From IMG/VR virus record IMGVR_UViG_3300006869_000038, positions 1 through 34,767 of that record: DNA of 34,767 nt; one strand, written 5' to 3'. The position numbers were made by a program, and so were the translations under genes. Each line of letters starts with the position of its first letter. Within the stretch, counting starts at the first letter, position 1. Below the pieces are notes generated by a model that was not told where the DNA came from, made no database searches, and worked only from the letters and a program-made list of their open reading frames with translations. This document shows positions 4,515 to 32,425 of this stretch, piece by piece. Origin of the DNA: a virus.

Positions 4515-4537
4515 TTTTTATTCCTCTTTGTTTATAT

Positions 4538-4548
4538 TATAAATATAT
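4538..4548 (-). promoter_or_regulatory. Putative late promoter motif (ATATATTTATA)
   Basis: Minus-strand ATATATTTATA lies 23 nt upstream of the ATG at 4514. It is one of seven intergenic copies of a TTATATTTATA-like motif in this window and fits the -10 position of a short-leader late transcript. Confidence 0.55.
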
Positions 4549-4553
4549 CGTTA

Positions 4554-5189
4554 TTATATATTACCTCCATCAATTTCTGCAATTGATGATGAAGCTGCAG
4601 TTCCGGTTACATCACCTTGTAAGACAACTTGTTGTGAACTACTAAATACTCCTTCTATATTTAATTTTGTTTTTACTTTTGTATCGAAACCAGTAACGTT
4701 GTCGGCATCTACCGAACCACTAACAATATGACCACCTTTACCTACAACTGCAGAACCACTAACTATACTTGGGAAAGTAATTGTTATAGTATTGTTATCT
4801 GTTAATCTAATTGATTGTGGGATAATTTGATAATTATCACTATCATAAGTCTGTACTAATGGATTTGGGGTATCTAAATTATGAGTTACTACCCAAGTTG
4901 AACCATTATAATATTTTCTAACTGTTGCTGATTGAGCAACTGTAATACCGCTCAGTTGAGAACCGTCTCCTTGATAAAATGAAGCTGATACTGTACCTTG
5001 TATGTTAACTGAACCTGTGAAGTTATTTGTTACTAATTCTTGAACGGTATCACCAACAGCAGAGCCTGACTTTCTTAGGAATACTTTACCATCATAAACG
5101 TTTATTGCTAATTCTCCAGGTGATAAGTCAGAAGTAGTTGGTTCATTGCCTTGAACTAAACTTCTTTTTAATTTAATTATCTGAGCCAT
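4554..5189 (-). CDS. Small fibre-associated protein (211 aa) with EIDGG C terminus
   Basis: The N terminus MAQIIKLKRSLVQGNEPTTSDLSPGELAINVYDGKVFLRK is an N-terminal module frequent in T4-like environmental phage fibres, and is shared with the gene at 1-1439. The middle (about residues 85-145) has a short beta-rich segment around ATVRKYYNGSTWVVTHNLDT and NTITITFPSIVSG. Such segments often sit between fibre modules. The C terminus ends AEIDGGNI, like the ends of the 158-aa and 1036-aa proteins. There is no chaperone domain. It starts 11 bases after the stop of the 1741-aa fibre gene, with AGGA upstream, so the two are co-transcribed. It may be a shortened fibre or an adaptor; no specific function can be assigned. 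Confidence 0.8.
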   Translation of the reverse strand: MAQIIKLKRSLVQGNEPTTSDLSPGELAINVYDGKVFLRKSGSAVGDTVQELVTNNFTGSVNIQGTVSASFYQGDGSQLSGITVAQSATVRKYYNGSTWVVTHNLDTPNPLVQTYDSDNYQIIPQSIRLTDNNTITITFPSIVSGSAVVGKGGHIVSGSVDADNVTGFDTKVKTKLNIEGVFSSSQQVVLQGDVTGTAASSSIAEIDGGNI

Positions 5190-5200
5190 ATATAGGTTTC

Positions 5201-10426: not shown

Positions 10427-10451
10427 TAATAGTTCTTCCTAATTTATTACA

Positions 10452-10462
10452 TATAAATATAA
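10452..10462 (-). promoter_or_regulatory. Putative late promoter motif (TTATATTTATA)
   Basis: The motif lies 25 nt upstream of the ATG at 10426 on the minus strand, downstream of the terminator at 10532-10563. This is what a fresh transcription start for the 1741-aa fibre gene would need. Confidence 0.55.
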
Positions 10463-10531
10463 ATGTATTGAAATTATAGTGGATGAAAAACATTCTACCA
10501 CTTATATAAGTATATGAATATAAAAAGATAT

Positions 10532-10563
10532 AAAAAAACCCCCACATTTCTGTGAGGGTTTTT
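10532..10563 (-). terminator. Intrinsic terminator after the 1036-aa fibre gene
   Basis: On the minus strand CCCUCACA (10558-10551) pairs with UGUGGGGG (10546-10539) around a GAAA tetraloop, with one U-G wobble, extended by A-U pairs and followed by seven U. On the plus strand the wobble becomes an A-C mismatch, so the element favours the coding strand. It lies about 20 bases past the stop codon. Confidence 0.88.
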
Positions 10564-10582
10564 ATATTAAAATCAGTAATTC

Positions 10583-13500: not shown

Positions 13501-13693
13501 CTGGTGTACTTGAACCAGTATATATTTTACCAACCGCATCTAAACGAGAACCATCTCTACCGATGAAAACAACAGATGAATCAAGTCCACTTACAGATGA
13601 ACCTGTTGATACAAGGATTTCCGCTTTTCTTTTAAAAGTAGCATCTTTAACACTTTCCAAGACACCTTTTTTATGTCTAATAATTTGTGCCAT
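10583..13693 (-). CDS. Tail fibre-like protein, modular, EIDGG C terminus (1036 aa)
   Basis: The leader MAQIIRHKKGVLESVKDATF is followed by a segment that includes SSVVFIGRDGSRLDAVGKI. The rest is fibre modules: two related blocks, each with DGN-L-LGGNITIGDAS, DIIPD, DLGSST, NEATDFGTGRVSGDNFGD and TGSFVGDGSG, and a QWGYLGSSDQGIATTDNVTF module. Two 54-base DNA stretches in these blocks are identical. A nearby block type (LxVxGxTTTxDSTTxxLGDNxLELN) also occurs twice. There is no S74 chaperone; the protein ends SNEIDGGAF. AAAGGA lies upstream of the ATG. A promoter-like motif lies 106 nt upstream, and a strong terminator follows. Without a chaperone it may be a shaft segment needing a partner for folding; that is inference. 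Confidence 0.9.
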   Translation of the reverse strand: MAQIIRHKKGVLESVKDATFKRKAEILVSTGSSVSGLDSSVVFIGRDGSRLDAVGKIYTGSSTPDIANNSSLDDSIDGIPFYNTTSEKLFILKKSGNVEVKTTANTNGTGIISGSQQIAALGAGIVSSSAQTITHLLGTNVYSSSAQVAQDLTTDNRNINLGNGTFTTTNTGSFGHLSVTGNTTIDGNLTLGGNITIGDASSDNISFGGQVSSDIIPDPSNTYDLGSSTNKFAEIHGTTIYGSISATNGVVSGSTQTIAHLNGSGVISGSEQLLNEATDFGTGRVSGDNFGDVAGTSTFTGSFVGDGSGLTGLATNLIISSSDDGTNDSLDLLSDTLNFAGTSNEVDVTVDSATNTVQVGLVTNPTIGGNLTVAGNLEIQGTTTTVDSTTITLGDNILELNGSGVANGGLLVKDATSPNTISGSLLWDSTNDYWKAGALGSEERILLANGDGIVSQSLLNDLTDSEVNQLKNIDTTTISTTQWGYLGSSDQGIATTDNVTFANISGSALDLTGLLHTDGNATIGGTLGVTGLSSLGNISGSSIDLTGNVVADGNASVGGTLTVTGNTSLAGISGSSLDITGNAKIDGNLVLGGNITIGDASTDTIAFGGDLTTDIIPDVTNTVDLGSSTRVFAEAHATNFYGTTNGTVNATNGVISGSEQLLNEATDFGTGRVSGDNFGDVAGTSTFTGSFVGDGSGITGLSTTISISGSDGSNDQVSLLNGAVTFDGGTGVSTTVASDTVTISVQDASTSVKGIASFETDDFSVTAGAVSIKNGGVRAVNLNADVVGDGLELDGTNNDINVLYGSTANTAVAGNTTITVTGTTNEIEITGTSAQTLGGGASYTIGLPNDVTIGNDLTVSNDLSVSGNATITGNLSVLGTTTTIDSTTVQLGDNVLELNYGGAQDTAGLLVTDSTAPNVVSGSLLWDGTNDYWKGGALGSEKELARLNGSDNDTNFVQKLDGNGLLVDSVLSDDGTDATFSGDLTITGLSAGANGAFIYVDTNDKLQSVNASQAGDVIQWDGSSFVASNEIDGGAF
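11681..11734 (-). repeat. 54-bp direct repeat, copy 1 (identical to 12845-12898)
   Basis: Both copies read the same over 54 bases and encode VISGSEQLLNEATDFGTGR in the same frame, 388 residues apart within the 1036-aa gene. Identity at synonymous positions points to recent duplication or gene conversion, not just protein-level constraint. Confidence 0.88.
12845..12898 (-). repeat. 54-bp direct repeat, copy 2 (identical to 11681-11734)
   Basis: This is the upstream partner of the repeat at 11681-11734. Flanking sequence is similar but diverges quickly at third codon positions (for example TTACTC against TTACAC just beyond the block), marking the edge of the homogenised segment. Confidence 0.88.
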
Positions 13694-13774
13694 TTTGTTT
13701 TTTTCCTTTGTTTTTTAATTAATTATTATTCCTATATAACCTTTATTTTTTTTTGGGTCATCTGCCCCATTTTA

Positions 13775-13792
13775 AAATACTATGTAGTATTT
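13775..13792. repeat. Short inverted repeat in the gap upstream of the 1036-aa gene
   Basis: AAATACTA and TAGTATTT are perfect 8-base arms around a 2-base centre. They lie in the 129-bp gap between the 158-aa and 1036-aa genes, next to a TTATATTTATA-type motif. They could be an RNA hairpin or a protein-binding site. The U-tract after it is too short for a confident terminator call. Confidence 0.45.
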
Positions 13793-13799
13793 ATCTTTT

Positions 13800-13810
13800 T
13801 ATAAATATAA
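13800..13810 (-). promoter_or_regulatory. Putative late promoter motif (TTATATTTATA), long leader
   Basis: Minus-strand TTATATTTATA lies just after the stop of the 158-aa gene and 106 nt before the ATG at 13693. The leader would be longer than for the other copies and would contain the inverted repeat at 13775-13792. Confidence 0.45.
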
Positions 13811-13822
13811 TTTTATTTTTTC

Positions 13823-14299
13823 TTATGATATACTTCCACCATCAATTTCTACTTTTTGTACTCCTCCTGTAAAATGAGCAGAACCTGTATTAAGAGAAAC
13901 CGCATCAGCAGTTACGGTGATACCATTTCCAGCACCAACATTTACTTGAACAGTACCACTTGTACCACCACCAGTTAAACCATTTCCGGCTAATACTGCA
14001 CTAATATCTCCAGATCCACCGGCACCACTACCTCCAAATCCTGTAAAGGATGACCATGTTACTGAATCTGTAAATGAAAAAGGTGGGTTTGCTAAAGTTA
14101 CTGATGCCTGAAATAACTCTTCCAATTCCTCACACCAAACAATTTGATTATTCGATATATGAGCAACAGGTGCTGATGTCATATCAGAGTAAGTATCATA
14201 TACTTTAAAAGCACCACGAATGTGGTCAGCGTCCATAATGGCTACCGAGCCAGTGTATGCCGGATTTAATACTAACTTATCATTAATCGAAATTGCCAT
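13823..14299 (-). CDS. Small fibre-associated protein (158 aa), EIDGG C terminus
   Basis: The N-terminal half (MAISINDKLVLNPAYTGSVAIMDADHIRGAFKVY) is not a standard fibre leader and I do not recognise it. It looks like a small alpha/beta attachment domain. A Gly-rich hinge (about residues 89-96, GGSGAGGSG) leads to a common phage-fibre module: GDISAVLAGNGLTGGGTSG, then NVGAGNGITVTADAVSLN. The C terminus is VQKVEIDGGSIS, the same ending as two larger neighbours. It has a strong AAGGAG site eight bases before ATG and a promoter-like motif in the 31-base gap before it, and may be expressed apart from the 1555-aa gene. It is likely a structural accessory of the fibre or baseplate. Confidence 0.8.
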   Translation of the reverse strand: MAISINDKLVLNPAYTGSVAIMDADHIRGAFKVYDTYSDMTSAPVAHISNNQIVWCEELEELFQASVTLANPPFSFTDSVTWSSFTGFGGSGAGGSGDISAVLAGNGLTGGGTSGTVQVNVGAGNGITVTADAVSLNTGSAHFTGGVQKVEIDGGSIS

Positions 14300-14317
14300 T
14301 TTACATTCTCCTTACTA

Positions 14318-14328
14318 TATAAATATAA
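14318..14328 (-). promoter_or_regulatory. Putative late promoter motif (TTATATTTATA)
   Basis: The motif fills most of the 31-base gap between the 1555-aa gene and the 158-aa gene, 18 nt upstream of the ATG at 14299. The gap holds little more than this motif and an AAGGAG ribosome site. Confidence 0.55.
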
Positions 14329-14330
14329 TG

Positions 14331-17300
14331 TTATGATGGAACTGAACCACTACTTGGAACAATTCTTACATAAGCATTTGCATTATTAAATTTATCTTCT
14401 GTACCAATTACTATCCAATCAGTATATCCATCAACTGCAGTATCCAAAGTTAATTTGTGGATGTTTGATGATTTAATATCATTACTCACTCCACCACTTG
14501 AATCTTGGTATGTACCATCAGGTGATACGAATACTACATATTCACCACTTGTTGAACTTCCACCTGGGTCTGAAATTGTTAACGATGTTGGTACTCCATT
14601 CATAGGTGAACCAAATGGTATGAATACAAATATTCTTTCAGATGCAGGAGAACCACCGATTGTTAATGCTCCTAAATCATTAAGTACAGTATCTACATTG
14701 TTACCACTTGCACTTCCTCTTAAAGTTGCAGTAAAGTTAGAACCATAAGCAACTGTAATTGTTGAATCACCTAACGTATCGTTATCTACAAATGAAGTAA
14801 AGAATCCATAAGCATTTGAGATACTTGGTGTTGGGGGTGTTCCACTACCAGCTGCAGTTATACCAGTTACGTTGGTGTATGAACCATCAATTGGTAAAGT
14901 ATAAACATAAATTGTACCACCAGAAGAAACTTCATCTACTATAATTGATTTATTGGTTAGTGAGGTTGATTCACCATAATTATCTGTTACACTTATATCA
15001 ATTGAGAATGTATTAGCAATTGAGATACTTGCAGTTGGTTGTACTAACCAAGATGAAGATGCTGCGTTTTGTGGAACCGCGTTAAACTTAGTTCCATCAG
15101 TACCACCAAGTGTTACGATATATGGTGAGTTTGATTCTGTATCTGAAATTGTAATTGTACCTGCGGTTGAACCATTTATTGCAGTATCAGTATCGTAACT
15201 TGATGCTGATACGAATGATACAGATGGTGCATTATTACCAAAGATGTTTGCGGTTACTAAACCACTACCAATGTTTCCATATTGGTCTTGGAATGTAATA
15301 GTAGTTGAAATAGTATCTCCACTTTGAGTTAATGAACCACTTAAATTTACACCAAGAGACATATTACCACTTGAGTTGATTAAGATTGCAGGGTTTGTAG
15401 AGTTGAATGATTGTACTACTTGAGAACCTGCTGATGGTGAATAAGTAACATTTACATCTGCTACATTTCCATTACCAAATCCGGTTGCATCTCTGAATGA
15501 ATCACCCGTTAATGCAGATTCTATAATATACATTGTAGTATCACCAGTCAGAGTACCATTACTTGCTTGTGTAATTGTAAATGAATGTGATTCTGTATTT
15601 GAACGGAATCCATGTACATCTTCAATCGTTGCTGATATTGAATAAGATGTAGAACCACTCAAATCAGAGTTTGCAGTTACTAAATAATTACCACCACTTT
15701 TAGTTGTAGTTAATTGTCCACTTGTATCTGTGAATACAAATGAATCGTAGTTGATTGAATCACTTTCAGTATCGTTGAAAGAAATTGTTACCAATGTTCC
15801 CCCACCACTTACCGCTTGGTTGGTATTCAATCTACTTGAATTTGTAAATGTGATATCAGGTGCGTTATTTTGAGTTACGTTTATGTTGATATCTTTAGAA
15901 CCACTATTTCCATATTGGTCATTATAAGTAATAGTAGTTGTTATTAAATCACCACTAACATTACCACTACCACTAATTGCAGTACCAACTGATAATACAC
16001 CAGTTGATGAGTTAACTGAAATTAAAGGGTTAGATGATTGGAAGTTAGTTGCAACTTGTGAACCATAGTTTGGTGAGTAAGAAACACTTACCCCACCTTG
16101 AGTTCCACTTCTACCATTTGTTCCAAGATAAATTGGACCAGTAGTTGCAGATTCTATAATGTATAGTGTACCTGTTGTAGAAAGAGAACCTGTTTCTGCT
16201 TGTGCAATTGTTACACTTCTTCCACTATAAGTTCTTGTATCATTATTAGAATCAGTTACAGTTATATCGTAGGTGTATGAGCCAGCAGATAAATCAGTTG
16301 CTGATTGTATTTCCCACGATGATGAGTTTGAATTTTGTGGTACTAACTTAAATGAACTTGCATTTGTACCACTTATAGTTGCTGAATATGGTGTATTACT
16401 ATCTTCATCAGTTAAAGTGAACGTTTCTATTACTCCATTTTCAGTACCAAGGTTTGTATTCAAATTTGATGTCTGAGTACTAAATGTAGCTACTGGTGCA
16501 TAAGATGGGAAGAATACAGCTGATAAGAAATCTTGAATACTTCCACTTGTGCCGGCATTAAATCCATCTGTATATAAATCTCCTAATAAAGTATTTGATA
16601 TTACTCTATTTCCATCAAAGGAAACATCACCACTACCACTACCACTTGCGGTAGATGAGATTACATAATCACCACTTGATGAATCTATTGTAATGTTTGT
16701 TCCAGGTAAAATTGAACCACTAAATACATTTGTACCATCTAAAGTTCTAAGTACCGAACCACTAACTACACCAGTACCATCAAGTGTTCTTAAAACAGAA
16801 CCACTTACTACTCCTGTTCCATCTAAAGTTCTAAGTACACTTCCACTAACTACACCAGTTCCATCTAAAGTTCTTAATACTGAACCACTAACAATATTAC
16901 TACCATCAGTAATTTGGGTTGAACCACTAACTAATCCACTTGGAAGTGAAGTTAAGTAAGATGAAGTAGCCGAAGTTAATGAATCAACTTCAGATTGGAT
17001 TGATGAAGTAAACTCATTTAATTTAGTTACATCAGTATGTTGAATATTATCTATTGTTGTTGCAATAGAAGATGAAAGTGATGATAATTCACTATCAGTT
17101 GCGAAAGTAGAATCTAATGAAGAACTAAAGTTTTCTAAATTAGTAATTCTTGTATCTGCAGAACTTGTGAATGAGTTAAGAGCAGAAATATCAGTAGAAC
17201 CACCACTACCAAATCCACTTGCTGCTGCTGATGATGAAATATATTCATCTGTAATTATATTAGTAATTTGAGTAGAACCACTAACAGTACCACTTGGAAT

Positions 17301-18998
17301 TTGAGTATGTTGAATTGCATCAATAGTTGATTGAATTGATGAACTAAAAGTAGTATATCCATCTGTTTGTGTAATATCAACTTGAGATGAACCACTAATT
17401 GTTCCTGCAGGTGCACCAGTTACATTAACTCTTACTGTTTGGGTTGGGTTTGACCCATAAACCATAATAGTGAATGGATTTACACCCGATGGGGTTGTTA
17501 CTCCAGAAGTGGTGTAGAATGAAGCCTCAAATCCATTAACTGTTTTATTTTGAATTGAAACTAAACGACCATCATCATTAAGTTCAGCATCAGTTACAAC
17601 AATATAGTTAGTATCAGGTTGAGGGGTTGAAAATGTAAAATCAAGTGTTCCATTTAAGAAGTTCCAATTTGCCCAACTAATATCTGTACCTGAACCATTA
17701 GAAGTTGTAGCTACTCTAGCAAATGCAAAAGGAGCAATAACAGAACCGGTTTCTATAATATCACCAATTCTTGAATCAAACGAAGCAGAATCTATATAAT
17801 AAGAGGAAGTAAATGAGTTTAATAATGTAATATCAGTAGAACCCCCACCACCTGAACCGAAACCACTTCTAGCTGCTGATTCAGAAATATAAGAATCTGT
17901 GATTATATTAGTAATTTGAGTAGAACCACTAATTGTTCCTGCTGGTATAGATGAACTACTACCCGTTGGTATGGTTATAGTATTTCCACTTGATATTGTA
18001 AGTTGGTCACCGCTAATCGAAAGTGTTTGAGTATCTGAACCTGTTAAATCAGTTGCTCCTTCTAATGCAGTTACTCTTGTATCAATAGAAGATGTAAACG
18101 TTTCAATATTATCTAATCTACTTACAACAACCTGTTCAACTCCATCAACTCTCGTAGTTAAAGTAGATTCTAAATTAGAAATATCAGTTGCAACTGAAGA
18201 ACTAAAATCAGTAAACGTTGAACCACTAATTACTCCACTTGGAATATCAGTATGAGAACCTGATGTAAATCCTAATGCAGTAATTTGAGCAGAACCACTA
18301 ATTGTTCCTGCTGGTACAGAAGTTGATGAACTTGTTACAAATCCTAAATCAGAAATTTGTTGTGAACCACTAATTGTTCCTTGTGGTATTTCAGTAATAT
18401 AAGATGAAGTTGCTGCCGATAATCCATCTACTTGAGTTTGTATTGAACTCGTAAATGTATTTAAGGAAGAAATATCAGTAGAACCACCACCAATACTACC
18501 ACTTAATGCATATCTTGAATCTAAAGATGATGTTAATTGTGATGAGCCTGATATGATTCCCCTACCAGTTGTTTCGTATGAAGATGTTGATGCGATTAAA
18601 GAATCAACTTGTGATTGTATTGATGCAGTAAATTGATTTAATCCTAAGATAATGATATCATTAGAACCAGTATAAGCGTTTAGTTGAGCAACTGAAGATA
18701 TTAATTCTGCGGAACCGGATACACCACCACCTCCACCACCAGTATTTGTAATTGTAATATTATCACCAACTTGGGTAATAACAATACCAGTACCTGCTAT
18801 GAAGTTGGGAGTACCATCTATATCATCATAACGAACTCCATAAATAGGACCCGATGATGAGATAGCAGATGCTGTTATTTGTGAAAATACGGATTGTGAA
18901 CCTGTTGCAATAATGGAACCAGAAACCGAAAGTTGTCCTTCGATTACCGAGGCGGTTACAATACCCTCTATCTGTTTACTTTGAATTAATGTTGCCAT
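14331..18998 (-). CDS. Large adhesin-like tail fibre with cadherin/Ig-like repeats (1555 aa)
   Basis: Residues 1-770 are SGS(S/T)Q-type fibre modules with short coiled-coil stretches. A compact beta domain (about 420-520, AFARVATTS ... TNYIVVTDAELND) resembles small receptor-binding domains of phage fibres. Four tandem 14-residue units span residues 707-762. Residues about 836-1355 alternate two beta domains, A-B-A-B-A. A is cadherin/Ig-like, with DITVTDSNND or DISVTDNYGE and NNAPDITF-type starts. B contains YIIESATTG or YIIESALTG, SYSPNYGSQV and ITYNDQYGNSGS. The end (1356-1555) is a separate beta-rich region with SGEYVVFVSPDG, finishing VPSSGSVPS. There is no S74 chaperone. It directly follows the 121-aa gene and lacks a strong ribosome site, suggesting coupling to the neck operon. 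A role in host-surface adhesion is inferred from the domain style. Confidence 0.9.
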   Translation of the reverse strand: MATLIQSKQIEGIVTASVIEGQLSVSGSIIATGSQSVFSQITASAISSSGPIYGVRYDDIDGTPNFIAGTGIVITQVGDNITITNTGGGGGGVSGSAELISSVAQLNAYTGSNDIIILGLNQFTASIQSQVDSLIASTSSYETTGRGIISGSSQLTSSLDSRYALSGSIGGGSTDISSLNTFTSSIQTQVDGLSAATSSYITEIPQGTISGSQQISDLGFVTSSSTSVPAGTISGSAQITALGFTSGSHTDIPSGVISGSTFTDFSSSVATDISNLESTLTTRVDGVEQVVVSRLDNIETFTSSIDTRVTALEGATDLTGSDTQTLSISGDQLTISSGNTITIPTGSSSSIPAGTISGSTQITNIITDSYISESAARSGFGSGGGGSTDITLLNSFTSSYYIDSASFDSRIGDIIETGSVIAPFAFARVATTSNGSGTDISWANWNFLNGTLDFTFSTPQPDTNYIVVTDAELNDDGRLVSIQNKTVNGFEASFYTTSGVTTPSGVNPFTIMVYGSNPTQTVRVNVTGAPAGTISGSSQVDITQTDGYTTFSSSIQSTIDAIQHTQIPSGTVSGSTQITNIITDEYISSSAAASGFGSGGSTDISALNSFTSSADTRITNLENFSSSLDSTFATDSELSSLSSSIATTIDNIQHTDVTKLNEFTSSIQSEVDSLTSATSSYLTSLPSGLVSGSTQITDGSNIVSGSVLRTLDGTGVVSGSVLRTLDGTGVVSGSVLRTLDGTGVVSGSVLRTLDGTNVFSGSILPGTNITIDSSSGDYVISSTASGSGSGDVSFDGNRVISNTLLGDLYTDGFNAGTSGSIQDFLSAVFFPSYAPVATFSTQTSNLNTNLGTENGVIETFTLTDEDSNTPYSATISGTNASSFKLVPQNSNSSSWEIQSATDLSAGSYTYDITVTDSNNDTRTYSGRSVTIAQAETGSLSTTGTLYIIESATTGPIYLGTNGRSGTQGGVSVSYSPNYGSQVATNFQSSNPLISVNSSTGVLSVGTAISGSGNVSGDLITTTITYNDQYGNSGSKDININVTQNNAPDITFTNSSRLNTNQAVSGGGTLVTISFNDTESDSINYDSFVFTDTSGQLTTTKSGGNYLVTANSDLSGSTSYSISATIEDVHGFRSNTESHSFTITQASNGTLTGDTTMYIIESALTGDSFRDATGFGNGNVADVNVTYSPSAGSQVVQSFNSTNPAILINSSGNMSLGVNLSGSLTQSGDTISTTITFQDQYGNIGSGLVTANIFGNNAPSVSFVSASSYDTDTAINGSTAGTITISDTESNSPYIVTLGGTDGTKFNAVPQNAASSSWLVQPTASISIANTFSIDISVTDNYGESTSLTNKSIIVDEVSSGGTIYVYTLPIDGSYTNVTGITAAGSGTPPTPSISNAYGFFTSFVDNDTLGDSTITVAYGSNFTATLRGSASGNNVDTVLNDLGALTIGGSPASERIFVFIPFGSPMNGVPTSLTISDPGGSSTSGEYVVFVSPDGTYQDSSGGVSNDIKSSNIHKLTLDTAVDGYTDWIVIGTEDKFNNANAYVRIVPSSGSVPS
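16713..16880 (-). repeat. Four tandem 42-bp coding repeats (14-aa units)
   Basis: Units start at 16880, 16838, 16796 and 16754 and encode VLRTLDGTGVVSGS three times, then VLRTLDGTNVFSGS. The protein repeats are exact for three units, while the DNA differs at a few synonymous positions. They lie in the 1555-aa fibre gene just before its cadherin-like half. Confidence 0.92.
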
Positions 18999-22661: not shown

Positions 22662-24272
22662 TTATAGGTTAGCTAAATCTTTAACATAGATTTTACCATA
22701 GAATTCTGGTCTTACCATTTTCTTAGCGTAACGAGTCATAACTCCTCTTCTTGGAGTGAAGTTAGTTGGGTCGTACACTAAAGGTGTCATGATAAGTGGT
22801 ACATATGGTGCATATACAGCTCCAGTTTCAAGGAAGTTGCTTCCTTTAAATCCTAACAAGATTTCGTTTGAAGTCATGTAAGGGTTTTTGTAAACTGTGT
22901 ATCTGTTTGCAATAGAACCAACAGTAGTTACACCAGCTGCGAAAGATGAAGCATCTTTATCAGCAGAAACTGTAAATCCTGGGATTGATTCTAAGATAGT
23001 ACATACATCAGGAGATGCAACTACGAAGTTAGCACCACCTCTAAGAGTCAATTGGTGAATCTTGTTAGAAACTTTGTTAAGTTTCGCACCAAGAGTTTGG
23101 AACCAAGAGTTCTTAGTGTAAGCAGCTGCTGAACTTGAGTTAGACCAAGTTCCTGCGATTGAATCATACTCTTCACCTAAAGTTACTGACCAGTACTCAG
23201 TTGTAAGAGCGTTAGCTTTTAACATATCAAGGATTTCAAGGTCAATCTCTAATGAGATGTACTCTGATAACATTGAAGTCAATTCAGCTTCTGCATCAAT
23301 TGAGTGGTAAGCGTTAAGGTCTTGAGCAAGTTCAGGAGTCCATACTGCCTTTAATTTTCTTGTCTTAGCAACAATTGCTTCAGACTTCAATTCAAGGTCA
23401 ACTTCTGGAATTCCGATATCAGTTGCTGGTTCAGATGGAGAAGCATCTTCAAAATCACCTCTTGTGATATCAGTTGGTTGTAGTGAATAATAGATAGTAT
23501 CTATTGTACCTGGGTCAGCAGCACCATCAGCTTTAACGATGAAAGTAATGTTTGTTCCATCTTCTGAAGTATGTGCTGGATAGTAATCAGAAATATCTGA
23601 ATCAGCAATTCTAAATGAACGTACTGCATCTCTATCTTCGTTTCCAGTTAAGTCAGAAAGTGCGATAGTAACTTTTGCTATTTCACCAGCTGCAATTGAA
23701 GCAGAAAGTGAAGAATCATAAGATACATCAGCCAATGAAGCAGAACCCCATGATACAGTTGATTTGCCAGTTACAGATGTTTCGTTTACTGTGTATCCGT
23801 AAGCACCGTCACCATAAAGACCGTTTTCAGCCGCTTGAGTTTGACCGAATCCAGCTGCTGGAGTAGCTCCACCAGTACCACCAAATAAAGAACCAGCAGC
23901 ACCAGTAGATTTACCACCTGTTGCAGTTCCGTATTTGAAATCTAAATAAAATATAAGTCCTGAAGGTAAGTTCATCGGTTGTACCGAAACGAATTCTTTC
24001 GATGCAATTTCACCGAAGATTCTTCTTACTAAAGGAAGTGCAACACCTGACCACTCTTCTGAACCTGCAGAAGTACCAGTAGCTGTTGACTCATCAAGCA
24101 ATTGTTTTGCTTGGTTTTCAAGTAGAACAGAAATTTGAGACTGTTCTCTCTCGTTTAAACCTTCTAGAAGTCCAGTTTGTTCCCATTTACCTCTAAGTTC
24201 TCTTGTCTCAGACAACATTACTTGTTGTGGGTTCTTTCCTTCCATAAGTTTAGATAAATCAAAATTTGCCAT
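22662..24272 (-). CDS. 23: Major capsid protein, gp23 family (536 aa)
   Basis: T4 gp23 builds the head shell. Diagnostic stretches seen are VSVQPMNLPSGLIFYLDFKYG (about residues 95-115), TRKLKAVWTPELAQDLNAYH, the DAEAELTSMLSEYISLEIDLEIL block, and the C-terminal FTPRRGVMTRYAKKMVRPEFYG. The length is close to T4 (521 aa). A Gly/Ala-rich and beta-rich stretch at about 118-280 corresponds to the family's variable insertion region. The N-terminal propeptide probably ends after Glu61 (LLDE, then STATG), aligned with the T4 cut after LTE at residue 65 and fitting the L/I-x-E rule. A strong AAGGAG precedes ATG. The scaffold gene lies 25 bases upstream, and a powerful terminator follows. Confidence 0.96.
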   Translation of the reverse strand: MANFDLSKLMEGKNPQQVMLSETRELRGKWEQTGLLEGLNEREQSQISVLLENQAKQLLDESTATGTSAGSEEWSGVALPLVRRIFGEIASKEFVSVQPMNLPSGLIFYLDFKYGTATGGKSTGAAGSLFGGTGGATPAAGFGQTQAAENGLYGDGAYGYTVNETSVTGKSTVSWGSASLADVSYDSSLSASIAAGEIAKVTIALSDLTGNEDRDAVRSFRIADSDISDYYPAHTSEDGTNITFIVKADGAADPGTIDTIYYSLQPTDITRGDFEDASPSEPATDIGIPEVDLELKSEAIVAKTRKLKAVWTPELAQDLNAYHSIDAEAELTSMLSEYISLEIDLEILDMLKANALTTEYWSVTLGEEYDSIAGTWSNSSSAAAYTKNSWFQTLGAKLNKVSNKIHQLTLRGGANFVVASPDVCTILESIPGFTVSADKDASSFAAGVTTVGSIANRYTVYKNPYMTSNEILLGFKGSNFLETGAVYAPYVPLIMTPLVYDPTNFTPRRGVMTRYAKKMVRPEFYGKIYVKDLANL

Positions 24273-24297: not shown

Positions 24298-25488
24298 TTA
24301 ATTAATATTAGCCAATTTCTTAAATCTTTCAGCCATCGTGTTAGTTGACTCAGTAATTACTTCCTTAGTAGGAGCAGTTGAAGCAACGGGCTTAGATGCG
24401 AATGATTCGTTGATTTTAGCAGTTTGTTTTTGTTTTTTCGTAGTTCCAGTAAACTTGAATGATTCAGCTAATGTACTGAATACCAATTTTACTTCTCTTA
24501 CGTTACCAGTTCTGTCTAGTGTCTCAACAACTTTCATTTTTTGTTCGTTAGTTAAGTCATAAGAACGGAATAGTTTGTTAGTGTAAAGAAGTTTTGCGTT
24601 TAACAAATTAACTTCGTTGATAGTAGATTTAAGTTCTTTGATAGTAGACATTGCTTCTTCCAATTCTGCTTTAACCTCATCAAGTTCGTTAGTTTCTTCT
24701 ACAACTTCTTCAGAAACTTCTTCTTCAGATTCTTCTTCCTCACCGTATCCCATTTCTCTTAGGATTTCGTTAAGGTCGATTTCTTCATCTAAATCTTCTT
24801 CAGATTCTTCACCAGCTTCTTCCTCAGCTTCTTCAGCTTCTTCTTCACCAGCTTCTTCTTCTTCTTCTTCGTGCATATCATCTTCATGACCTGCAACAGC
24901 GTCATCAGCGATATCAGCAACTTGTTCTTCTTCTTCATCATCGAGTTCTTCTTCAAGTTCTCTGATGATAGCTTCTAAATCAAGTTCATCTTCATCTGAT
25001 TCTTCTTCTTCGTGATAAGTTTCTTCAACTTCATCACCTTCTTCTTCAGCCTCTTCGCTTACATCAGCTTCTTCTTCTTCCTCAGTTTCAGAAACAGTTA
25101 CAGATAAAGCTTCATCAACTTCTTCCGATTCCGTTACTTCTTCTGATTCAGCAGTGATTTGCTCTTCACCTTCTGCAGTGTATTCACCTTCAGTTACTTC
25201 TTCAGATTCTTCAGAGATTTCTTCTTCGTTAACTTCTTCAGTAGATTCTTCAATCTCTTCTTCGTTAACTACTTCTTCAGAAACTTCTTCAGTTACTTCT
25301 TCCTCGTTTACATCTTCTACTTCTTCAGTTACTTCTTCTTCCATTTCTTGTTGAAGTTTCTGAGAAAGGATAGATTGTAATCTTGGAGTAAATGCTTCTT
25401 CAAGTGCAATCTTTGCATTAGCAATAGCAGTTTCTCTAACAGCTTTAGCATCAGCGATGGCTTCTTTTAACAAATTTGAATTTGCCAT
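24298..25488 (-). CDS. 22: Prohead scaffold (core) protein, gp22 family, extremely acidic (396 aa)
   Basis: The N terminus (MANSNLLKEAIADAKAVRETA) and the C-terminal block (about residues 289-342, NLLNAKLLYTNKLFRSYDLT, then KVVETLDRTGNVREVKLVFS) match scaffold proteins of T4-like phages. The end TNTMAERFKKLANIN is also typical. Between residues about 49 and 270 lies a Glu/Asp-dominated, Lys-poor stretch, longer than in T4 gp22 (269 aa); on the plus strand it shows as CTTCTT-rich DNA. In T4 the scaffold is degraded to peptides by gp21 before packaging. Candidate cut sites of the local type are VNE (59-61), INE (290-292) and INE (359-361). It lies directly before the capsid gene, as in T4. The ribosome site is a modest AAAGGT. 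Confidence 0.9.
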   Translation of the reverse strand: MANSNLLKEAIADAKAVRETAIANAKIALEEAFTPRLQSILSQKLQQEMEEEVTEEVEDVNEEEVTEEVSEEVVNEEEIEESTEEVNEEEISEESEEVTEGEYTAEGEEQITAESEEVTESEEVDEALSVTVSETEEEEEADVSEEAEEEGDEVEETYHEEEESDEDELDLEAIIRELEEELDDEEEEQVADIADDAVAGHEDDMHEEEEEEAGEEEAEEAEEEAGEESEEDLDEEIDLNEILREMGYGEEEESEEEVSEEVVEETNELDEVKAELEEAMSTIKELKSTINEVNLLNAKLLYTNKLFRSYDLTNEQKMKVVETLDRTGNVREVKLVFSTLAESFKFTGTTKKQKQTAKINESFASKPVASTAPTKEVITESTNTMAERFKKLANIN

Positions 25489-26024: not shown

Positions 26025-26390
26025 TTAAGAACCTTTACCAGTTCCTGATTTTCTTCCTTTAGTATGTGTTGAAACGTTTATTGGTTTTTTACCTTGACCT
26101 GGTGAATTTACTCCACCTCTTCCTGCCTTGTTTTGTGCTGCTCTTTTTCTACGAGTTGCAGATTCTTTTTCTTTCTTACTCATAGTTTTTGCTTTTGCAG
26201 CTGGAACACATTTAGCGTATCCACTCTTTGAACCACTTGTTCCACAAGGTGGATGCTTTCCACCAACTTTTTTACCAATGTTTACCCATTTAGATTTAAA
26301 CCAATTTTTTAAATCTTCGTTAACAATGTTTCCACAATGGATACATCTGTTTTCTTCGATAATTTCTGTAAATAGTTCTTGGAGTTTCAT
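26025..26390 (-). CDS. Basic Cys-containing putative internal head protein (121 aa)
   Basis: The N terminus MKLQELFTEIIEEN looks like a T4-type capsid-targeting peptide. A CIHC pair (Cys16, Cys19) and a VNE motif (23-25) follow. Then comes DLKNWFKSKWVNIGKK, GGKHPPCG (Cys49), YAKCVPAAKAKT (Cys61) and SKKEKESATRRKRAAQNKAG, a domain I have seen in phage and other small basic proteins of unknown function. The C-terminal third is rich in Lys, Gly and Ser. The strong positive charge fits packing with DNA in the head. Four Cys could bind a metal, but only two form a clear CxxC. The ATG overlaps the stop of the 634-aa gene (TAATG). Function is inferred from N-terminal sequence, charge and position. 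Confidence 0.8.
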   Translation of the reverse strand: MKLQELFTEIIEENRCIHCGNIVNEDLKNWFKSKWVNIGKKVGGKHPPCGTSGSKSGYAKCVPAAKAKTMSKKEKESATRRKRAAQNKAGRGGVNSPGQGKKPINVSTHTKGRKSGTGKGS

Positions 26391-28294
26391 TATTTACTCA
26401 ATAAGAAAAGAGCCTCTTGTGCATCTTGTGGATTTTTAATCTTTGGGTCTTTGTACATATCAACACCATAACCACGAAGTGCATTAGAGATAAATAACAT
26501 AGTTTTAGGATGTCCTACTTTATCTTCCATTTGTTGTAACAAATCGTAGAAACGTTTTTCATTCCCATTATTCATTTTCTCTGCTTGTTTATACTCATCT
26601 TTGTGTTTCTTGATGTATGAAGCTTTAGAGTCTTTGTAACCAAATTTAGCTTCGTTTACTGATTCACCAAAAAGTTTGATTGTAAGTTTTGCGTTTGGAT
26701 TACCAGGTTTACCAGCTAATCCATTAGCGAAGTTAATTCTACCTTGTAGGTTTGCTGATTTTAATGCTTTAAATAATTTCTTACTATTGATTCTATTCTT
26801 ATCAATGAAATCTTGAACCGCAGAACCACGAGTACCAGTTAATGCTGCAATACCCATTGCTTCTTTACTTGCTGATTCGTTTACATCAACACCTTTTACA
26901 TTCTTCATTGATTGTTTATCAAGAATCATTGTGTTGTGATTATTTCCTAAACTCTTAGCAAATTTTTCAGCATCTTTTCTATCTTTATATCCAGCTGCTG
27001 CAGGTTTACCAAAGACACCTTTCTTTTGGTAAAGAACATAGAACATATTAGAATTTCTATCTTCGTTTACTGATTCATTTTGTTTGTAATCTTTAGATAA
27101 TTTTATAGATACTTTACTTGAAAGTGGCCCATCTTCTTTATAATCAATAGATACTTGTTTAATAGATTTATCACTATATCTATTTACTTTAATTTTTGAT
27201 TGCAATGCCTTTACAACATCTTTTGTAGATTTTTTGTAATGTTTTGCTGCTTTTCTAACTTCAGAGTTTTTTTCTAACTCTTTATTAAAGTCAGCAAGAG
27301 CAGTATCATATTTAACTTCGTTTACTGATTCATTTGTTAGTTTATATCCTTGTTTTACAAGTGAACCAACAAAATCACTTAAATCTTTTTTGTTTTTGAA
27401 GATTTTCATATCAAAGAAATCACTACCATCTTTGTGTTTCTTTTTTCCATCGTGGTAAGAGATAGTGTATTTTGCTTTACCAATACCATCTTGTCTTTTG
27501 AATCTTTTTTTACCTTCTCTCATATTACCATCGTAGTTCATTGCCCAATCATCAAATCCATCTAACATCTTTGAAATCTGTCTTTCATCAGGTGAACCAT
27601 ATGGATTGTAATCAAACTTATCTTTCATTTGAGAAAGTTCTTTTTGTCCAAAGTTTTCGTATCCACCTTTTTGTTTCCACTTTCTCATTAGTCCTTTTTT
27701 AACTTTTGAAATTGCTGAACGAACTTGTGATGGTTTCATTGCTTCGTTTACTGATTCATCCATTACATCATACATCCTGCTATTTCTACCAACTGATACG
27801 AGAGATAAACCTTTGTGTTTCTTACTCAATTTAGCAAATTCTTTTTTTGCCTTGTTGATATCACCATCACCTGGTCCTCTACCACCATCTTTCCAATAAA
27901 TTTTACCGTAATCTTGTTTTCTTTTATCAAACTTATCTACTATTACTAATATTTCGTTTATTGATAATACATCAACAGATTCTTTAATTCCTCTTTTGGT
28001 AACGTTATTAATCCAACCATTTTGGATAAACCAATCCATAGTGTCCTCGAAACTTCTTTTTTGTTTCTTAGCCCACATATTGAAATCAACTTTCTTATTG
28101 AATTGTTTTTGGTTCTTTACGATTGCTTTGATTACTCGTTCTTTGTTGGTATCACCTTTGGATACATCTTTGAAAGAAAGTTTCTTCCAAGTTTTGTAAT
28201 CTACAAATTCAACAGCATCATCGGTTTTGTAATAACCGAAGAACAGTTTACCTTTACCATCTGAAAAAATTGTTTTACCTACTACTGATGCCAT
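26390..28294 (-). CDS. Putative internal-head polyprotein with repeated SVNE sites (634 aa)
   Basis: Start chosen at ATG 28294 (MASVVGKTIFSDGKGK), six bases after AAGGAG. A longer frame to 28453 only overlaps the upstream gene. The protein is a chain of small, mostly Lys-rich modules separated by a recurring motif: SINE (E114), DESVNE (E184), NESVNE (E326), NESVNE (E411), DVNES (E473) and GESVNE (E548). Cutting after each Glu gives pieces of about 114, 70, 142, 85, 62, 75 and 86 residues. Some look like complete mini-domains, such as YTISYHDGKKKHKDGSDFFD with IFKNKKDLSDFV in module 3, or RNSNMFYVLYQKKG in module 5. Four sites share the DNA word TTCGTTTACTGATTC (plus strand). T4 gp21 protease cuts after L/I-x-E. 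Similar x-N-E sites occur in gp21 and neighbours here. No enzyme family is recognised. Confidence 0.85.
   Translation of the reverse strand: MASVVGKTIFSDGKGKLFFGYYKTDDAVEFVDYKTWKKLSFKDVSKGDTNKERVIKAIVKNQKQFNKKVDFNMWAKKQKRSFEDTMDWFIQNGWINNVTKRGIKESVDVLSINEILVIVDKFDKRKQDYGKIYWKDGGRGPGDGDINKAKKEFAKLSKKHKGLSLVSVGRNSRMYDVMDESVNEAMKPSQVRSAISKVKKGLMRKWKQKGGYENFGQKELSQMKDKFDYNPYGSPDERQISKMLDGFDDWAMNYDGNMREGKKRFKRQDGIGKAKYTISYHDGKKKHKDGSDFFDMKIFKNKKDLSDFVGSLVKQGYKLTNESVNEVKYDTALADFNKELEKNSEVRKAAKHYKKSTKDVVKALQSKIKVNRYSDKSIKQVSIDYKEDGPLSSKVSIKLSKDYKQNESVNEDRNSNMFYVLYQKKGVFGKPAAAGYKDRKDAEKFAKSLGNNHNTMILDKQSMKNVKGVDVNESASKEAMGIAALTGTRGSAVQDFIDKNRINSKKLFKALKSANLQGRINFANGLAGKPGNPNAKLTIKLFGESVNEAKFGYKDSKASYIKKHKDEYKQAEKMNNGNEKRFYDLLQQMEDKVGHPKTMLFISNALRGYGVDMYKDPKIKNPQDAQEALFLLSK
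26651..27757 (-). repeat. Dispersed 15-bp repeat TTCGTTTACTGATTC encoding ESVNE
   Basis: Perfect copies lie at 26651-26665, 27062-27076, 27317-27331 and 27743-27757. A copy differing at the last base lies at 28599-28613 in the next gene upstream. Each encodes ESVNE (KSVNE in the last) in frame. Codon choice is identical although synonymous codons are available, which points to copying of the linker DNA along with modules. Confidence 0.9.
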
Positions 28295-28304
28295 TGTTCT
28301 CTCC

Positions 28305-29063
28305 TTAACAGTTTTTCCAACCACCTCCAGCTGATTTGTATTGTTTTGCAGCCCAACCATTAGCGTATGCAGATGGATAAACATCGAATTTCTTTTTAGC
28401 TTGTCCTTTGTAGTAAGACCATTTAGAAGCATCAGTTGGACAAGATTTTTCACTCATCAATACTTTTTCAACCTTTAAACCAAACTCATAAAGTTTAACT
28501 TCTTCTTCGTTTAAATCAGATACTTCTTTTAAAGTAGTTACAATGTTTCCACTTTCTGTTCTTTTAGAAATCATTACTGGTTGCTCTGTGATTGTTTCTT
28601 CGTTTACTGATTTGTTACCACCACAGCCACATCCACATCCACAACCACCATCTTTAGATTCTTTGATACCTAATCTTTGTTTCATTTGGTCCTCTGTGAT
28701 TTCACCAAACTTATAGTATCTTGAAAGGATATGTCCCATATCTTCGTACAATCCTGCCATTCTTTGGTCAAGTGCACGAGCCTCAAGAGCAACTTTATCG
28801 AATTGTTTACCCAACTTATCCAATTCACTCATGTTTCTCTTAACTGTGTGTTTATCGAACCAATCTCCTGCTTCTTTGATTGCAAGTGTTCTAGCAGCTT
28901 CAGTAATACCACCAAGGGTTTCTGCTACTTTGATAATATCAGATTTTCTATCCATCGATTCTTGGTACTTGTTGTAAGTAGAAACGATTTCAAGGAAGTG
29001 TCTCTTTACCTCAGTAGATAAAGGTCTTTCTTCATTTTCTTTTATGAGTTGGGTTAATTTCAT
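28305..29063 (-). CDS. Putative head-packaged protein with Cys cluster and YPSAYANGWA domain (252 aa)
   Basis: The N terminus MKLTQLIKENEE resembles a capsid-targeting peptide with a possible cut after KE. Residues about 15-135 are predicted helical (coiled-coil-like, around LDKLGKQFDKVALEARALDQ). Next is DGGCGCGCGCGG (Cys141, 143, 145, 147), then KSVNEE (cut site Glu155) and a short beta/helical segment. The end (about 206-252) is SCPTDASKWSYYKGQAKKKF with DVYPSAYANGWAAKQYKSAGGGWKNC. That motif recurs in many phage and viral proteins of unknown function, and Cys208 and Cys252 flank it. A strong AAAGGAG lies seven bases before ATG. The gene sits ten bases before the polyprotein gene. The (CG)n stretch could bind metal or cross-link; this is speculation. 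Confidence 0.82.
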   Translation of the reverse strand: MKLTQLIKENEERPLSTEVKRHFLEIVSTYNKYQESMDRKSDIIKVAETLGGITEAARTLAIKEAGDWFDKHTVKRNMSELDKLGKQFDKVALEARALDQRMAGLYEDMGHILSRYYKFGEITEDQMKQRLGIKESKDGGCGCGCGCGGNKSVNEETITEQPVMISKRTESGNIVTTLKEVSDLNEEEVKLYEFGLKVEKVLMSEKSCPTDASKWSYYKGQAKKKFDVYPSAYANGWAAKQYKSAGGGWKNC

Positions 29064-29076
29064 TTCTATTCTCCTT

Positions 29077-29463
29077 TTAGTATAGTGGTTTTAGTGGTTT
29101 TCCATATTTACCATAAAACCATTTCTTTTTAGCAGTATTATAAAGATAAATCCAATCGGCTCCACCTTTTTCATCTGCTTGTTGCATATAATCACTAATA
29201 TTATTTACTCTTCCATTTGCAACAAATCCCCCACTTCCATAGTATCTATCTACTTCTTTGTCTTTGTAAATACCAGTAGCACCACCTTTTTTGATATAAT
29301 TTTTTACATCTTTATCAGATTTAAAATGGTGTTTAATTGCAGGTTTCATGTTTTCAGGATAACCATCGTAATGAGTATAAACAGAAGTAATCTTTCCATT
29401 TGGTTCAATAATACCAACATGAGAATGAGTTCCTTCTTGAATAAGTGATTTTAATTTTATCAT
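29077..29463 (-). CDS. Putative head-targeted small protein with THYDGYPE motif (128 aa)
   Basis: The leader MIKLKSLIQEG fits the local capsid-targeting pattern, with a possible cut after Glu10. The body begins THSHVGIIEPNGKITSVYTH, then YDGYPENMKPAIKHHF and KDVKNYIKKGGATGIYK. It resembles a small phage-protein family with an IYCHWDGYPE-like signature followed by an HY-D-KV-LI-G pattern, whose function is unknown. The end is WIYLYNTAKKKWFYGKYG. Having this domain behind a targeting-type leader suggests it is carried in the virion. AGAGGT lies before ATG. It is two bases from the upstream stop, in the same operon as its neighbours. Confidence 0.8.
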   Translation of the reverse strand: MIKLKSLIQEGTHSHVGIIEPNGKITSVYTHYDGYPENMKPAIKHHFKSDKDVKNYIKKGGATGIYKDKEVDRYYGSGGFVANGRVNNISDYMQQADEKGGADWIYLYNTAKKKWFYGKYGKPLKPLY

Positions 29464-30630: not shown

Positions 30631-31221
30631 TTAACTTAATTCAGTTATAATTTCTCTCATCATATCTTGTGCTTTACAATAATCGCCACAAACAACTTGT
30701 TCTTTTAATTGTTTATTAATCGATTCGTTCATTGGTGTCATGAAAGCACCATGAGTTGATGGGTTAGATACAAAATCCCAACCTATTAACTCAAAATCTT
30801 CTCCTACTTGTACTTTACCACCTGATAGTGGTTCTACTGAACCCATACCACGAGATGATATACCTAATAGGATACCTGCTTTTAATAATTCTTTTAAGAT
30901 GTTTCCACTTGGTGTAGGTAATATCTCTACTGTACCAACTAAATCATCACCATCCCAATGAATCTCTCTTACATTGTGAGATACGTTCTTTAGGTTGATG
31001 ACTGAAGAATCAGGATGGTCTAATTCACCAAGAGCACGTCTTTCTTTGATAAGAGTTTCGTACTTTTGAGCTTCTCTTTCAAGAATATCCTTTGGATAGA
31101 TTCTCCCATTTTGATTTTCTGCACCAGCTCTTTGTAAAATACCCTTAACAATAGTTCTTCCACTACTATCTTCGTTTACTCTACCTTCGAATAATCTGGT
31201 TTCTATTAGTAAGTTACTCAT
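30631..31221 (-). CDS. 21: Prohead maturation serine protease, gp21 family (196 aa)
   Basis: T4 gp21 cuts scaffold, capsid and internal proteins in the prohead, then itself. The motifs are visible: RTIVKGILQRAGAENQNGRIYP (about 22-43), ALGELDHP with catalytic-type His69, GISSRGMGSV with the candidate nucleophile Ser122 or Ser123, and DFVSNPSTHGAFM with Asp149. Length matches the family (T4 212 aa). Start chosen at ATG 31221 (MSNLLIETRL), just after GGGGAG and sharing a base with the stop of the 58-aa gene; a GTG four codons earlier is less likely. Possible self-cleavage sites of the local type are RVNE (Glu17) and PMNE (Glu166), near both ends. Encoded just before the cassette whose products carry the same motif. 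Confidence 0.92.
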   Translation of the reverse strand: MSNLLIETRLFEGRVNEDSSGRTIVKGILQRAGAENQNGRIYPKDILEREAQKYETLIKERRALGELDHPDSSVINLKNVSHNVREIHWDGDDLVGTVEILPTPSGNILKELLKAGILLGISSRGMGSVEPLSGGKVQVGEDFELIGWDFVSNPSTHGAFMTPMNESINKQLKEQVVCGDYCKAQDMMREIITELS

Positions 31222-31397
31222 TATGCTCCCCACATTTTACGTTTCTTAAACAAATCAAAGAAAATTGCAGATACCTCTTGACGTATCAATTCACGAATGA
31301 GTTTTTCATCTTCATTCGTGATTTCCTCGTTAATCTTGCCTTTTTTAACATTAACGATTTCTTCATTGATAATATCATACAATTGTCTTTTTGTCAT
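31221..31397 (-). CDS. Small helical protein between portal and protease (58 aa)
   Basis: MTKRQLYDIINEEIVNVKKG followed by a charged amphipathic helix (EDEKLIRELIRQEVSAIFFD) and a basic end KKRKMWGA. The ATG at 31397 directly follows the stop of the 106-aa gene, and its own TAA overlaps the protease ATG, so all three are coupled. It has no own ribosome site. It occupies the place of T4 67/68 prohead core genes but is less acidic than gp67. An IINE motif near the N terminus resembles the local protease sites. Function is unknown. Confidence 0.75.
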   Translation of the reverse strand: MTKRQLYDIINEEIVNVKKGKINEEITNEDEKLIRELIRQEVSAIFFDLFKKRKMWGA

Positions 31398-31718
31398 TTA
31401 TTTTTTTTCTTTTTTCTCAATTGCCTTTTGAAGTGCTGGTGGTAGTTTTTTCTGAGCATCTGTTAATTCAGATACTTGTTCATCTGCAGAACCAAATGTA
31501 GGTCCTTCGTGCCCTCTACCAAATCTTTCGTTCTTTTCTCCTCTACCTTTCCAAGTAGCATCGATTTTATTAAAGAATGCCTTCTTTTCTTCATCAGACA
31601 TTTGTGGAATTGATTTTCCAGCTTTTTCTAATGCTTTTTTGAAGAATGCTTGATATTCGGTTTCTTCAACCATCACTTCTCTAACGATTTCTTTTAATCT
31701 ATCTCTTGATATTTTCAT
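31398..31718 (-). CDS. Conserved small head-region protein with EYQAFFKKALEK motif (106 aa)
   Basis: The leader MKISRDRLKEIVREVMVEE is followed by EYQAFFKKALEKAGKSIPQM, SDEEKKAFFNKIDATWKGRG and a Lys-rich tail. The EYQ-FF-KALEK ... KK-FFN-ID motif is one I associate with small proteins encoded near T4-like structural genes of aquatic phages; no function is established. The leader resembles the capsid-targeting style of the other cassette proteins. ATGA overlap with the upstream 236-aa gene and an AAGGA site inside that gene's end suggest tight coupling. It is probably packed in the prohead core or head. Confidence 0.8.
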   Translation of the reverse strand: MKISRDRLKEIVREVMVEETEYQAFFKKALEKAGKSIPQMSDEEKKAFFNKIDATWKGRGEKNERFGRGHEGPTFGSADEQVSELTDAQKKLPPALQKAIEKKEKK

Positions 31719-32425
31719 TTTTCGATTTCCTTTATAGTTTTGGCGATGTTGATTAACCTCTCCTTTATCTTATAAATATGATTATTTGTTCTTTTCCAAT
31801 AGTTCTGAGAGTCCAACTCGTTCATGGTTTTGATTTTATTGTACCAAGAGAAAAACTTCTCTACTTCTCGTAATTGGTATTTTAATTCTTTTAAACCCAT
31901 TGCCATCTTCTTGTGAGGATGCATGGTTTCATCGTTTTTTAATTCTAACCAACGATTTACTGGTCTTTTTACTTTAGCTTCATTGATACCTTCGTAAAAG
32001 ATTCTACCATTTCTATGGTCACCTGTAATTTTGGTAGTTAGTTGTTGAACTTTATCAGTATGTAGTTCCCATTTACTATCATCTGGTATTTGGATTTCAA
32101 ATCCACCAGGTGCAGATGAGTTTAAAGAAATTTTAATTCTTGGGTTTATTTTCTTAATACCTGCTTCAAGTTTTTTAAAGTTAGAAGAAGAGATTTTTGT
32201 TATTGCTTCGTTGATTCCATCTTCATCGATTTTACCAACAATTTTCATTCCAAATTGAGTTGAGATTTTTTTCTTTCTTTTTTTATCTTTAGAACCACCA
32301 TTAGAAAAAGCACCAGGCACATTATACCCAGCAATATTGCCTGTTGCATTTGTTTCATCTAATTCTTGTTCAATTTCTTGAATTAGTTCATCGATAAGTT
32401 CATTAAGATATCTTTCCATTGACAC
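31715..32425 (-). CDS. Putative prohead core protein with INE sites (236 aa)
   Basis: A GTG start at 32425, seven bases after AAGGAG, fits better than the ATG two codons later. The acidic helical leader (about 3-23, MERYLNELIDELIQEIEQEL) is followed by GNIAGYNVPGAF, a short motif common in head-region proteins of marine T4-like phages. Next is a basic patch KDKKRKKK (46-53). Candidate cut sites are GINEA (Glu73), GINEA (Glu149) and MNEL (Glu203). The piece 74-149 is a small alpha/beta module and the piece 150-236 is a helical module (KELKYQLREVEKFFSWYNKI), so this could be a smaller polyprotein. It overlaps the upstream gene by 23 bases. Confidence 0.8.
   Translation of the reverse strand: MSMERYLNELIDELIQEIEQELDETNATGNIAGYNVPGAFSNGGSKDKKRKKKISTQFGMKIVGKIDEDGINEAITKISSSNFKKLEAGIKKINPRIKISLNSSAPGGFEIQIPDDSKWELHTDKVQQLTTKITGDHRNGRIFYEGINEAKVKRPVNRWLELKNDETMHPHKKMAMGLKELKYQLREVEKFFSWYNKIKTMNELDSQNYWKRTNNHIYKIKERLINIAKTIKEIEK

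Follow-up and report, generated by a model that had tools for sequence, protein, structure and literature searches.

The internal head proteins IPI, IPII and IPIII of phage T4 are small basic proteins (~8–20 kDa), made one per gene and cut once each after Glu by a Peptidase_S77 protease that follows the rule L/I-x-E (PMC9026906). In IPIII, the first 10 residues target the protein and processing takes place at residues 8 and 10 (PMC9026906). Here we analyzed a stretch of viral DNA of 34,767 nucleotides (the window; IMG/VR record IMGVR_UViG_3300006869_000038) containing a 634-aa ORF whose segments are likewise small and basic, and whose single-gene relatives carry leaders of the same kind as those of T4. 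In contrast to T4, up to eleven segments are found per ORF here, and the 634-aa ORF itself has eight modules and no leader of its own. Head-cargo proteins appear to be made as one chain of interchangeable beads, in which the joining tag is likely both a protease cut site and a DNA swap point.

The ORF lies in a head cassette of T4-type order: portal, the carrier-like ORF 31715, protease, small proteins, polyprotein, S21-like gene, scaffold and capsid protein (Table 1). The portal is partial and was judged by position and sequence. An earlier note on this DNA had placed a gp21-type protease nearby, and the profile searches bear this out: the product belongs to Peptidase_S77 (97.5 bits against Pfam PF03420, cut-off 27) and matches PHROG 207, head maturation protease (E 3e-50). 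The motif of the polyprotein sites was also said to recur elsewhere in the cassette, and it does so in the protease (RVNE, PMNE), the scaffold and ORFs 31715, 28305 and 26025. In relatives, the slot of the carrier takes 51 distinct inserts (0 to 729 aa in length), the majority ending in ESVNE or a variant followed by AK, and empty carrier forms of ~150–160 aa exist (the relatives named are L081, L054 and L047). The nearest database relatives of the capsid protein come from an uncultured phage, Microcystis phage Mel-JY01 and Flavobacterium phage immuto. The ribosomal protein S21-like gene (Pfam PF01165; 25655–25981) has a similarly placed counterpart in Mel-JY01. No relatives of the protease were found in the bacterial and archaeal genomes scanned, and for this reason no host was assigned. 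Positions 1548–18998 hold tail-fibre-like ORFs of up to 1741 aa, repetitive and SGS/SSS-rich, two of which have a chaperone-of-endosialidase-like C terminus as judged by eye.

Table 1. Features of the head cassette and of the 634-aa ORF, by position in the window. A slash marks a predicted or presumed cut.
Feature	Position	Strand	Basis or remark
Major capsid protein (gp23 family), predicted maturation site QLLDE/ST	22662..24272	(-)	alignment
Acidic scaffold (gp22-like by position), several [VIL]-x-E sites	24298..25488	(-)	position, sequence
Small basic cassette protein, leader MKLQELFTE/, IVNE/ site	26025..26390	(-)	sequence
Polyprotein ORF, 634 aa	26390..28294	(-)	ATG start, GGAGAG upstream
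Module 7 (aa 549–634), C-terminal, helical	26393..26650	(-)	close family always C-terminal
Module 6 (aa 474–548), ends ESVNE/, five-helix domain	26651..26875	(-)	47 homologous segments; AlphaFold pLDDT 93.5
15-bp joint GAATCAGTAAACGAA (ESVNE)	26651..26665	(-)	identical 15-mer
Module 5 (aa 412–473), ends DVNE/	26876..27061	(-)	standalone relatives with leader MKLKNLIPE/ or MKLKDLLPE/
Module 4 (aa 327–411), ends ESVNE/	27062..27316	(-)	homologous segments in other ORFs
15-bp joint GAATCAGTAAACGAA (ESVNE)	27062..27076	(-)	identical 15-mer
Module 3b (aa 261–326), ends ESVNE/	27317..27514	(-)	33 homologous segments
15-bp joint GAATCAGTAAACGAA (ESVNE)	27317..27331	(-)	identical 15-mer
Module 3a (aa 185–260), ends MRE/	27515..27742	(-)	found without 3b in L011 and L013
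Module 2 (aa 115–184), ends ESVNE/	27743..27952	(-)	homologous segments in other ORFs
15-bp joint GAATCAGTAAACGAA (ESVNE)	27743..27757	(-)	identical 15-mer
Module 1 (aa 1–114), ends LSINE/	27953..28294	(-)	homologues elsewhere come after VNE/, INE/ or ITE/
Cassette protein, leader MKLTQLIKE/	28305..29063	(-)	L009 homologue runs on into shuffled modules including module 7
Small single protein, leader MIKLKSLIQE/	29077..29463	(-)	sequence
Prohead protease, Peptidase_S77 (T4 gp21 family), own RVNE/D and PMNE/S sites	30631..31233	(-)	Pfam, PHROG
Carrier, 76-aa module between GINE/ sites	31715..32425	(-)	conserved 73-aa N-part and 87-aa C-part

The earlier note had described six [VI]-N-E sites in the ORF, and we confirmed all of them (E114, E184, E326, E411, E473 and E548), together with the exact ESVNE reading of four of the six. 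Shuffles of the ORF with the same composition (n = 10,000) contained 0.21 such sites on average and 3 at most, and 0.009 SVNE would be expected from composition. The proposed boundaries are real, but the proposed count of seven modules is one short: residues 185–326 contain a further site, MRE/GKK at E260, and represent two modules (3a and 3b) because their homologues occur apart, making eight in total. With six V/I-N-E sites plus MRE, the ORF carries the hydrophobic-x-Glu sites of a gp21-type substrate. Most of the modules had been called Lys-rich, and every segment is indeed basic (pI 9.4–10.3, K+R 16–24%), so that the ORF does not have the acidic character of a T4 gp22-like scaffold; at 7–16.5 kDa, before the E260 site is counted, the segments have the size and charge of the small mature products of T4 internal protein genes.

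No recognizable targeting leader was found at the N terminus of the ORF, which begins MASVVGKTIFSDG, directly with module 1, and lacks the 10–19 N-terminal residues ending in L/I-x-E by which we define the leader of an internal protein. Being leaderless, the 634-aa ORF is not classed here as an internal protein, although it may work like several of them in a row, and its start counts against the reading as prohead cargo. The frame remains open for 53 codons 5' of the ATG (28294–28453), overlapping the 3' end of 28305–29063 in a different frame. A frameshift from that ORF into the polyprotein is not favored, since a +1 shift would be needed and the polyprotein has its own ribosome site.

We then turned to structure prediction and homologue comparison, both suggested in the earlier note. 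AlphaFold gave a full-length model of moderate quality (pLDDT 60), in which modules 5–7 are well folded and modules 1–4 poorly resolved; the moderate quality and poor resolution count against the polyprotein reading. All six sites and E260 are located in stretches with pLDDT below 50. Module 6, modeled with 46 sequences, forms five helices at high confidence (pLDDT 93.5) and a C-terminal tag at low confidence. In the predicted models the sites thus lie between folded domains, as in a polyprotein whose conserved units fold separately, and these units also recombine separately. No close relative of the whole ORF was found in cultured phages, Pfam, PHROGs or NCBIfam, and Foldseek returned no match at E ≤0.001 for the full model or module 6. 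The best candidate of VIA-align 2, an uncharacterised Yersinia protein (Z 4.0, rmsd 3.5 over 72 residues), was set aside as not meaningful. Profile and structure searches gave no function or fold match for any module of the ORF, which counts against the reading.

Relatives were drawn from IMG/VR, with most loci coming from metagenomes and near-duplicates partly removed. Modules were found in other orders, as in 1-X-3-5-6-7 (L002), 1-5-7 (L004), 4-6-2 (L010), 1-6 (L007) and 5-3b-6 (L016), and the joins in recombined loci fall at VNE or similar x-x-E. Between the 634-aa ORF and that of L002, dS is 0.014–0.03 in modules 1, 3 and 5 and 0.57 in module 7, an inequality between the same two ORFs that marks them as mosaic. 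When boundaries were chosen without the motif, as the ends of local protein alignments (≥90% identity), 50% of ends and 42% of starts lay no more than 6 residues from [VI]NE, whereas random positions gave 10% and 7.5%, respectively. The tripeptides most enriched at these breakpoints include VNE, SVN, ESV, NEA and INE. Scanning with the 17-mer GAATCAGTAAACGAAGC detected at least 120 stretches, and all 86 of those examined among the matches listed fall, in the ESVNE-A reading, within an open frame of at least 150 codons. Among the matches listed for all loci, 128 non-redundant ORFs had at least two SVNE-type sites; this set was picked by motif, and its counts describe the group without being an independent test of the motif. 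Clustering at 80% coverage divided these ORFs, again among the matches listed, into 562 segments of 273 families, with distinct module orders in 127 of 128. Nearly all recurrent families (78/80) have at least two different neighbors, and only 1 of the 128 ORFs contains the same family twice. Certain families keep to the N terminus and others to the C terminus, whereas those in the middle move. Judged by these sequence comparisons, the sites are true module boundaries where phages exchange modules, and the predicted arrangement is shared by many uncultivated T4-like phages, not special to one virus.

Modules were also found singly. Single-gene versions lie directly behind 9–12-aa leaders ending in [LI]-x-E (MKMISLLKE, MRLKKLITE, MIKLKSLLQE, MIKLKELLNE, MKLLDILNE, MEKMQKLNE and MKLKNLIPE), the first two of which directly precede some homologues of module 6. 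Among 348 distinct cassette ORFs, close relatives still included, [LIVM]-x-E peaks at residues 9 and 10 (53 and 76 ORFs) over a background mean of 9 ORFs at residues 20–45. About one third of complete polyproteins, including the 634-aa ORF, have no leader by a simple sequence rule. Since the same modules stand behind leaders and behind tags, the internal tag and the leader end are interchangeable contexts for one module.

The specificity of the protease was approached through aligned sites in relatives, with the T4 gp23 cut, FLTE/AE, as reference for the capsid protein. Glu occupies the aligned capsid site in 41 of 41 distinct proteins, with L, V or I at P3 (30, 10 and 1) and Ala or Ser at P1'. 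Similarly, the N-terminal site of the protease has Glu in 79 of 79 distinct sequences, a varied P2, and V, I, L or M at P3 (51, 14, 13 and 1). V-x-E at both sites (10/41 and 51/79) agrees with the earlier suggestion that V/I-N-E fits the gp21-type rule. The left junctions of module 3b read VNE, VTE, VKE, IDE, INE, IKE, MRE and others; N, T, K, D, S, R and E all occur there at P2, while the hydrophobic P3 and the P1 Glu hold with three exceptions among distinct flanks. Ala, Gly or Ser is found at P1' in 318 of 453 sites. Such a pattern, with P2 free and P3 and P1 held, would be expected under a hydrophobic-x-Glu protease but not from a DNA repeat alone.

Cleavage at these sites would also suit a scaffold-like core protein whose modules serve prohead assembly and whose fragments, like those of T4 gp22 and gp67, end up discarded or broken down to peptides. 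The ORF is indeed located between protease and scaffold, carrier 31715 is placed where T4 has gp67/gp68, and T4 core proteins are cut to fragments (PMC9026906). We nevertheless consider this unlikely. The dN/dS ratio within modules is 0.05–0.15, in pairs with enough change only, near-identical pairs being uninformative; the modules are therefore maintained proteins. Besides being under purifying selection, they are basic and some are compact, and they are freely exchanged and different in nearly every phage, unlike an assembly part. Enzyme-like modules in relatives argue in the same direction: CTP_transf_like (cytidylyltransferase-like) recurs above the Pfam cut-off, and a Zeta_toxin match is weak. 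DUF3008 also recurs among relatives above its cut-off. PADLOC gave single weak matches only on relatives. In L090:11064-13307, module 6 forms the end of an ORF of 747 aa that matches the archaeal chromosomal protein MC1 below threshold.

All four ESVNE tags of the ORF are written in the same DNA 15-mer, GAATCAGTAAACGAA, which is present at 89 of 140 unique sites in relatives against ~5% expected from codon use (GTA 96% vs 48%, AAC 81% vs 38%, TCA 83% vs 40% at the tag). We located DNA joints as the ends of stretches ≥95% identical between different polyproteins. Near-identical stretches end at the 15-mer in 52 of 107 cases and start there in 55 of 104 (random ~7%), and the joint positions peak at the exact edges of the 15-mer, as is also visible base by base. 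Either recombination uses the repeat, or new joints are copied together with it. The sameness of the tag alone is no proof of selection for cleavage, given that it is a DNA repeat as well; the excess over codon use and the coincidence of joints with the 15-mer could also come from a recombination joint that is otherwise just a flexible linker in an uncut multidomain chain. This explanation is quite improbable, as junctions of other DNA keep hydrophobic-x-Glu (VKE, VTE, IDE, MRE), single-gene versions begin right behind a leader ending by the same rule, and the motif is the same as that of the capsid and protease sites.

Two related polyprotein clusters are found outside the head cassette, in large contigs. 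In L104:3865-9828 (G002, 84–90 kb) a polyprotein-like ORF and leader-bearing small genes lie far from the head cassette, as does a polyprotein-like ORF with a weak zeta-toxin-like P-loop segment in L015:4660-7131 (G001, 215 kb).

Polyprotein-like ORFs beyond the head cassette count against the head-cargo reading, yet a multidomain non-virion protein (e.g. for host takeover) sitting in the cassette by chance is very improbable, given that polyprotein and protease share a strand in 75 of 75 testable cases and that single-gene versions carry leaders typical of head-targeted proteins.

Overall, a polyprotein of internal head proteins, putatively cut by the gp21-type protease, is well supported by comparison, and the multi-module precursor put forward in the earlier note gains from the shuffling, the single-gene versions with leaders, the placing of the sites in the models and the aligned V-x-E sites. 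We consider it probable that the 634-aa ORF encodes some eight small basic internal head proteins in one precursor, cut by the gp21-type protease in head maturation, with the tag as recombination joint. The polyprotein would enter the prohead core, where the protease would cleave after Glu at [VIM]-x-E, mostly ESVNE, during head maturation. Folded modules of ~7–13 kDa would be freed, would remain with the DNA and would probably be ejected alongside it. The 15-bp repeat probably lets homologous recombination swap, add and drop modules in frame, the protease site always being retained. More tentatively, this hints at a dual use of one 15-bp sequence, as code for the protease site and as recombination joint, by which T4-like phages may share a large exchangeable library of head cargo and each in-frame recombination may give a correctly processed set.

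If this holds, head loading via a shuffled polyprotein is in use across a large group of T4-like phages that have not been cultivated. Many phage ORFs that lack annotation would then be accounted for (the 128 ORFs comprise 273 families, of which almost none has a known domain), such ORFs could be split by rule into real proteins before annotation, and hydrophobic-x-E at a swappable joint would become a simple tag to find injected phage proteins. The role of the T4 internal proteins is a long-standing open question, for which the modules offer many natural variants to test. Of the matches listed in our literature search, none evidently dealt with an ESVNE motif in phages, and no description of head loading by a shuffled polyprotein in tailed phages was found in the literature searched.

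Several known systems share parts of this arrangement. The T4 core proteins gp22, gp67 and gp68 are similarly encoded between portal and major capsid protein and have many [LIV]-x-E sites, but gp22 and gp67 are acidic and have no exchangeable modules, whereas the modules here are basic. Propeptides of the giant phages SPN3US and phiKZ (gp245 and gp175 proteases; PMC10052503, PMC9026906) also show several x-x-E cuts in one head protein; there, the extra cuts remove a propeptide and leave one mature protein, while in the present ORFs every segment is conserved and can be exchanged on its own. Two cultured Kyanoviridae, Methylophilales phage Melnitz and Pelagibacter phage HTVC008M, have long ORFs in which hydrophobic-D-E sites (ELDE, EIDE, EMDE) stand between small domains, together with T4-like leaders and a few modules homologous to relatives of the 634-aa ORF. 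Their tag is different, and the ORFs are annotated as hypothetical proteins only; the Melnitz ORF L218:1399-5760 and the HTVC008M ORF L220:651-3977 perhaps represent the same arrangement with another tag. Finally, the shuffling of integron cassettes is similar in effect, but under the dual use of the tag the exchange here would take place inside genes, via general recombination and virion proteolysis.
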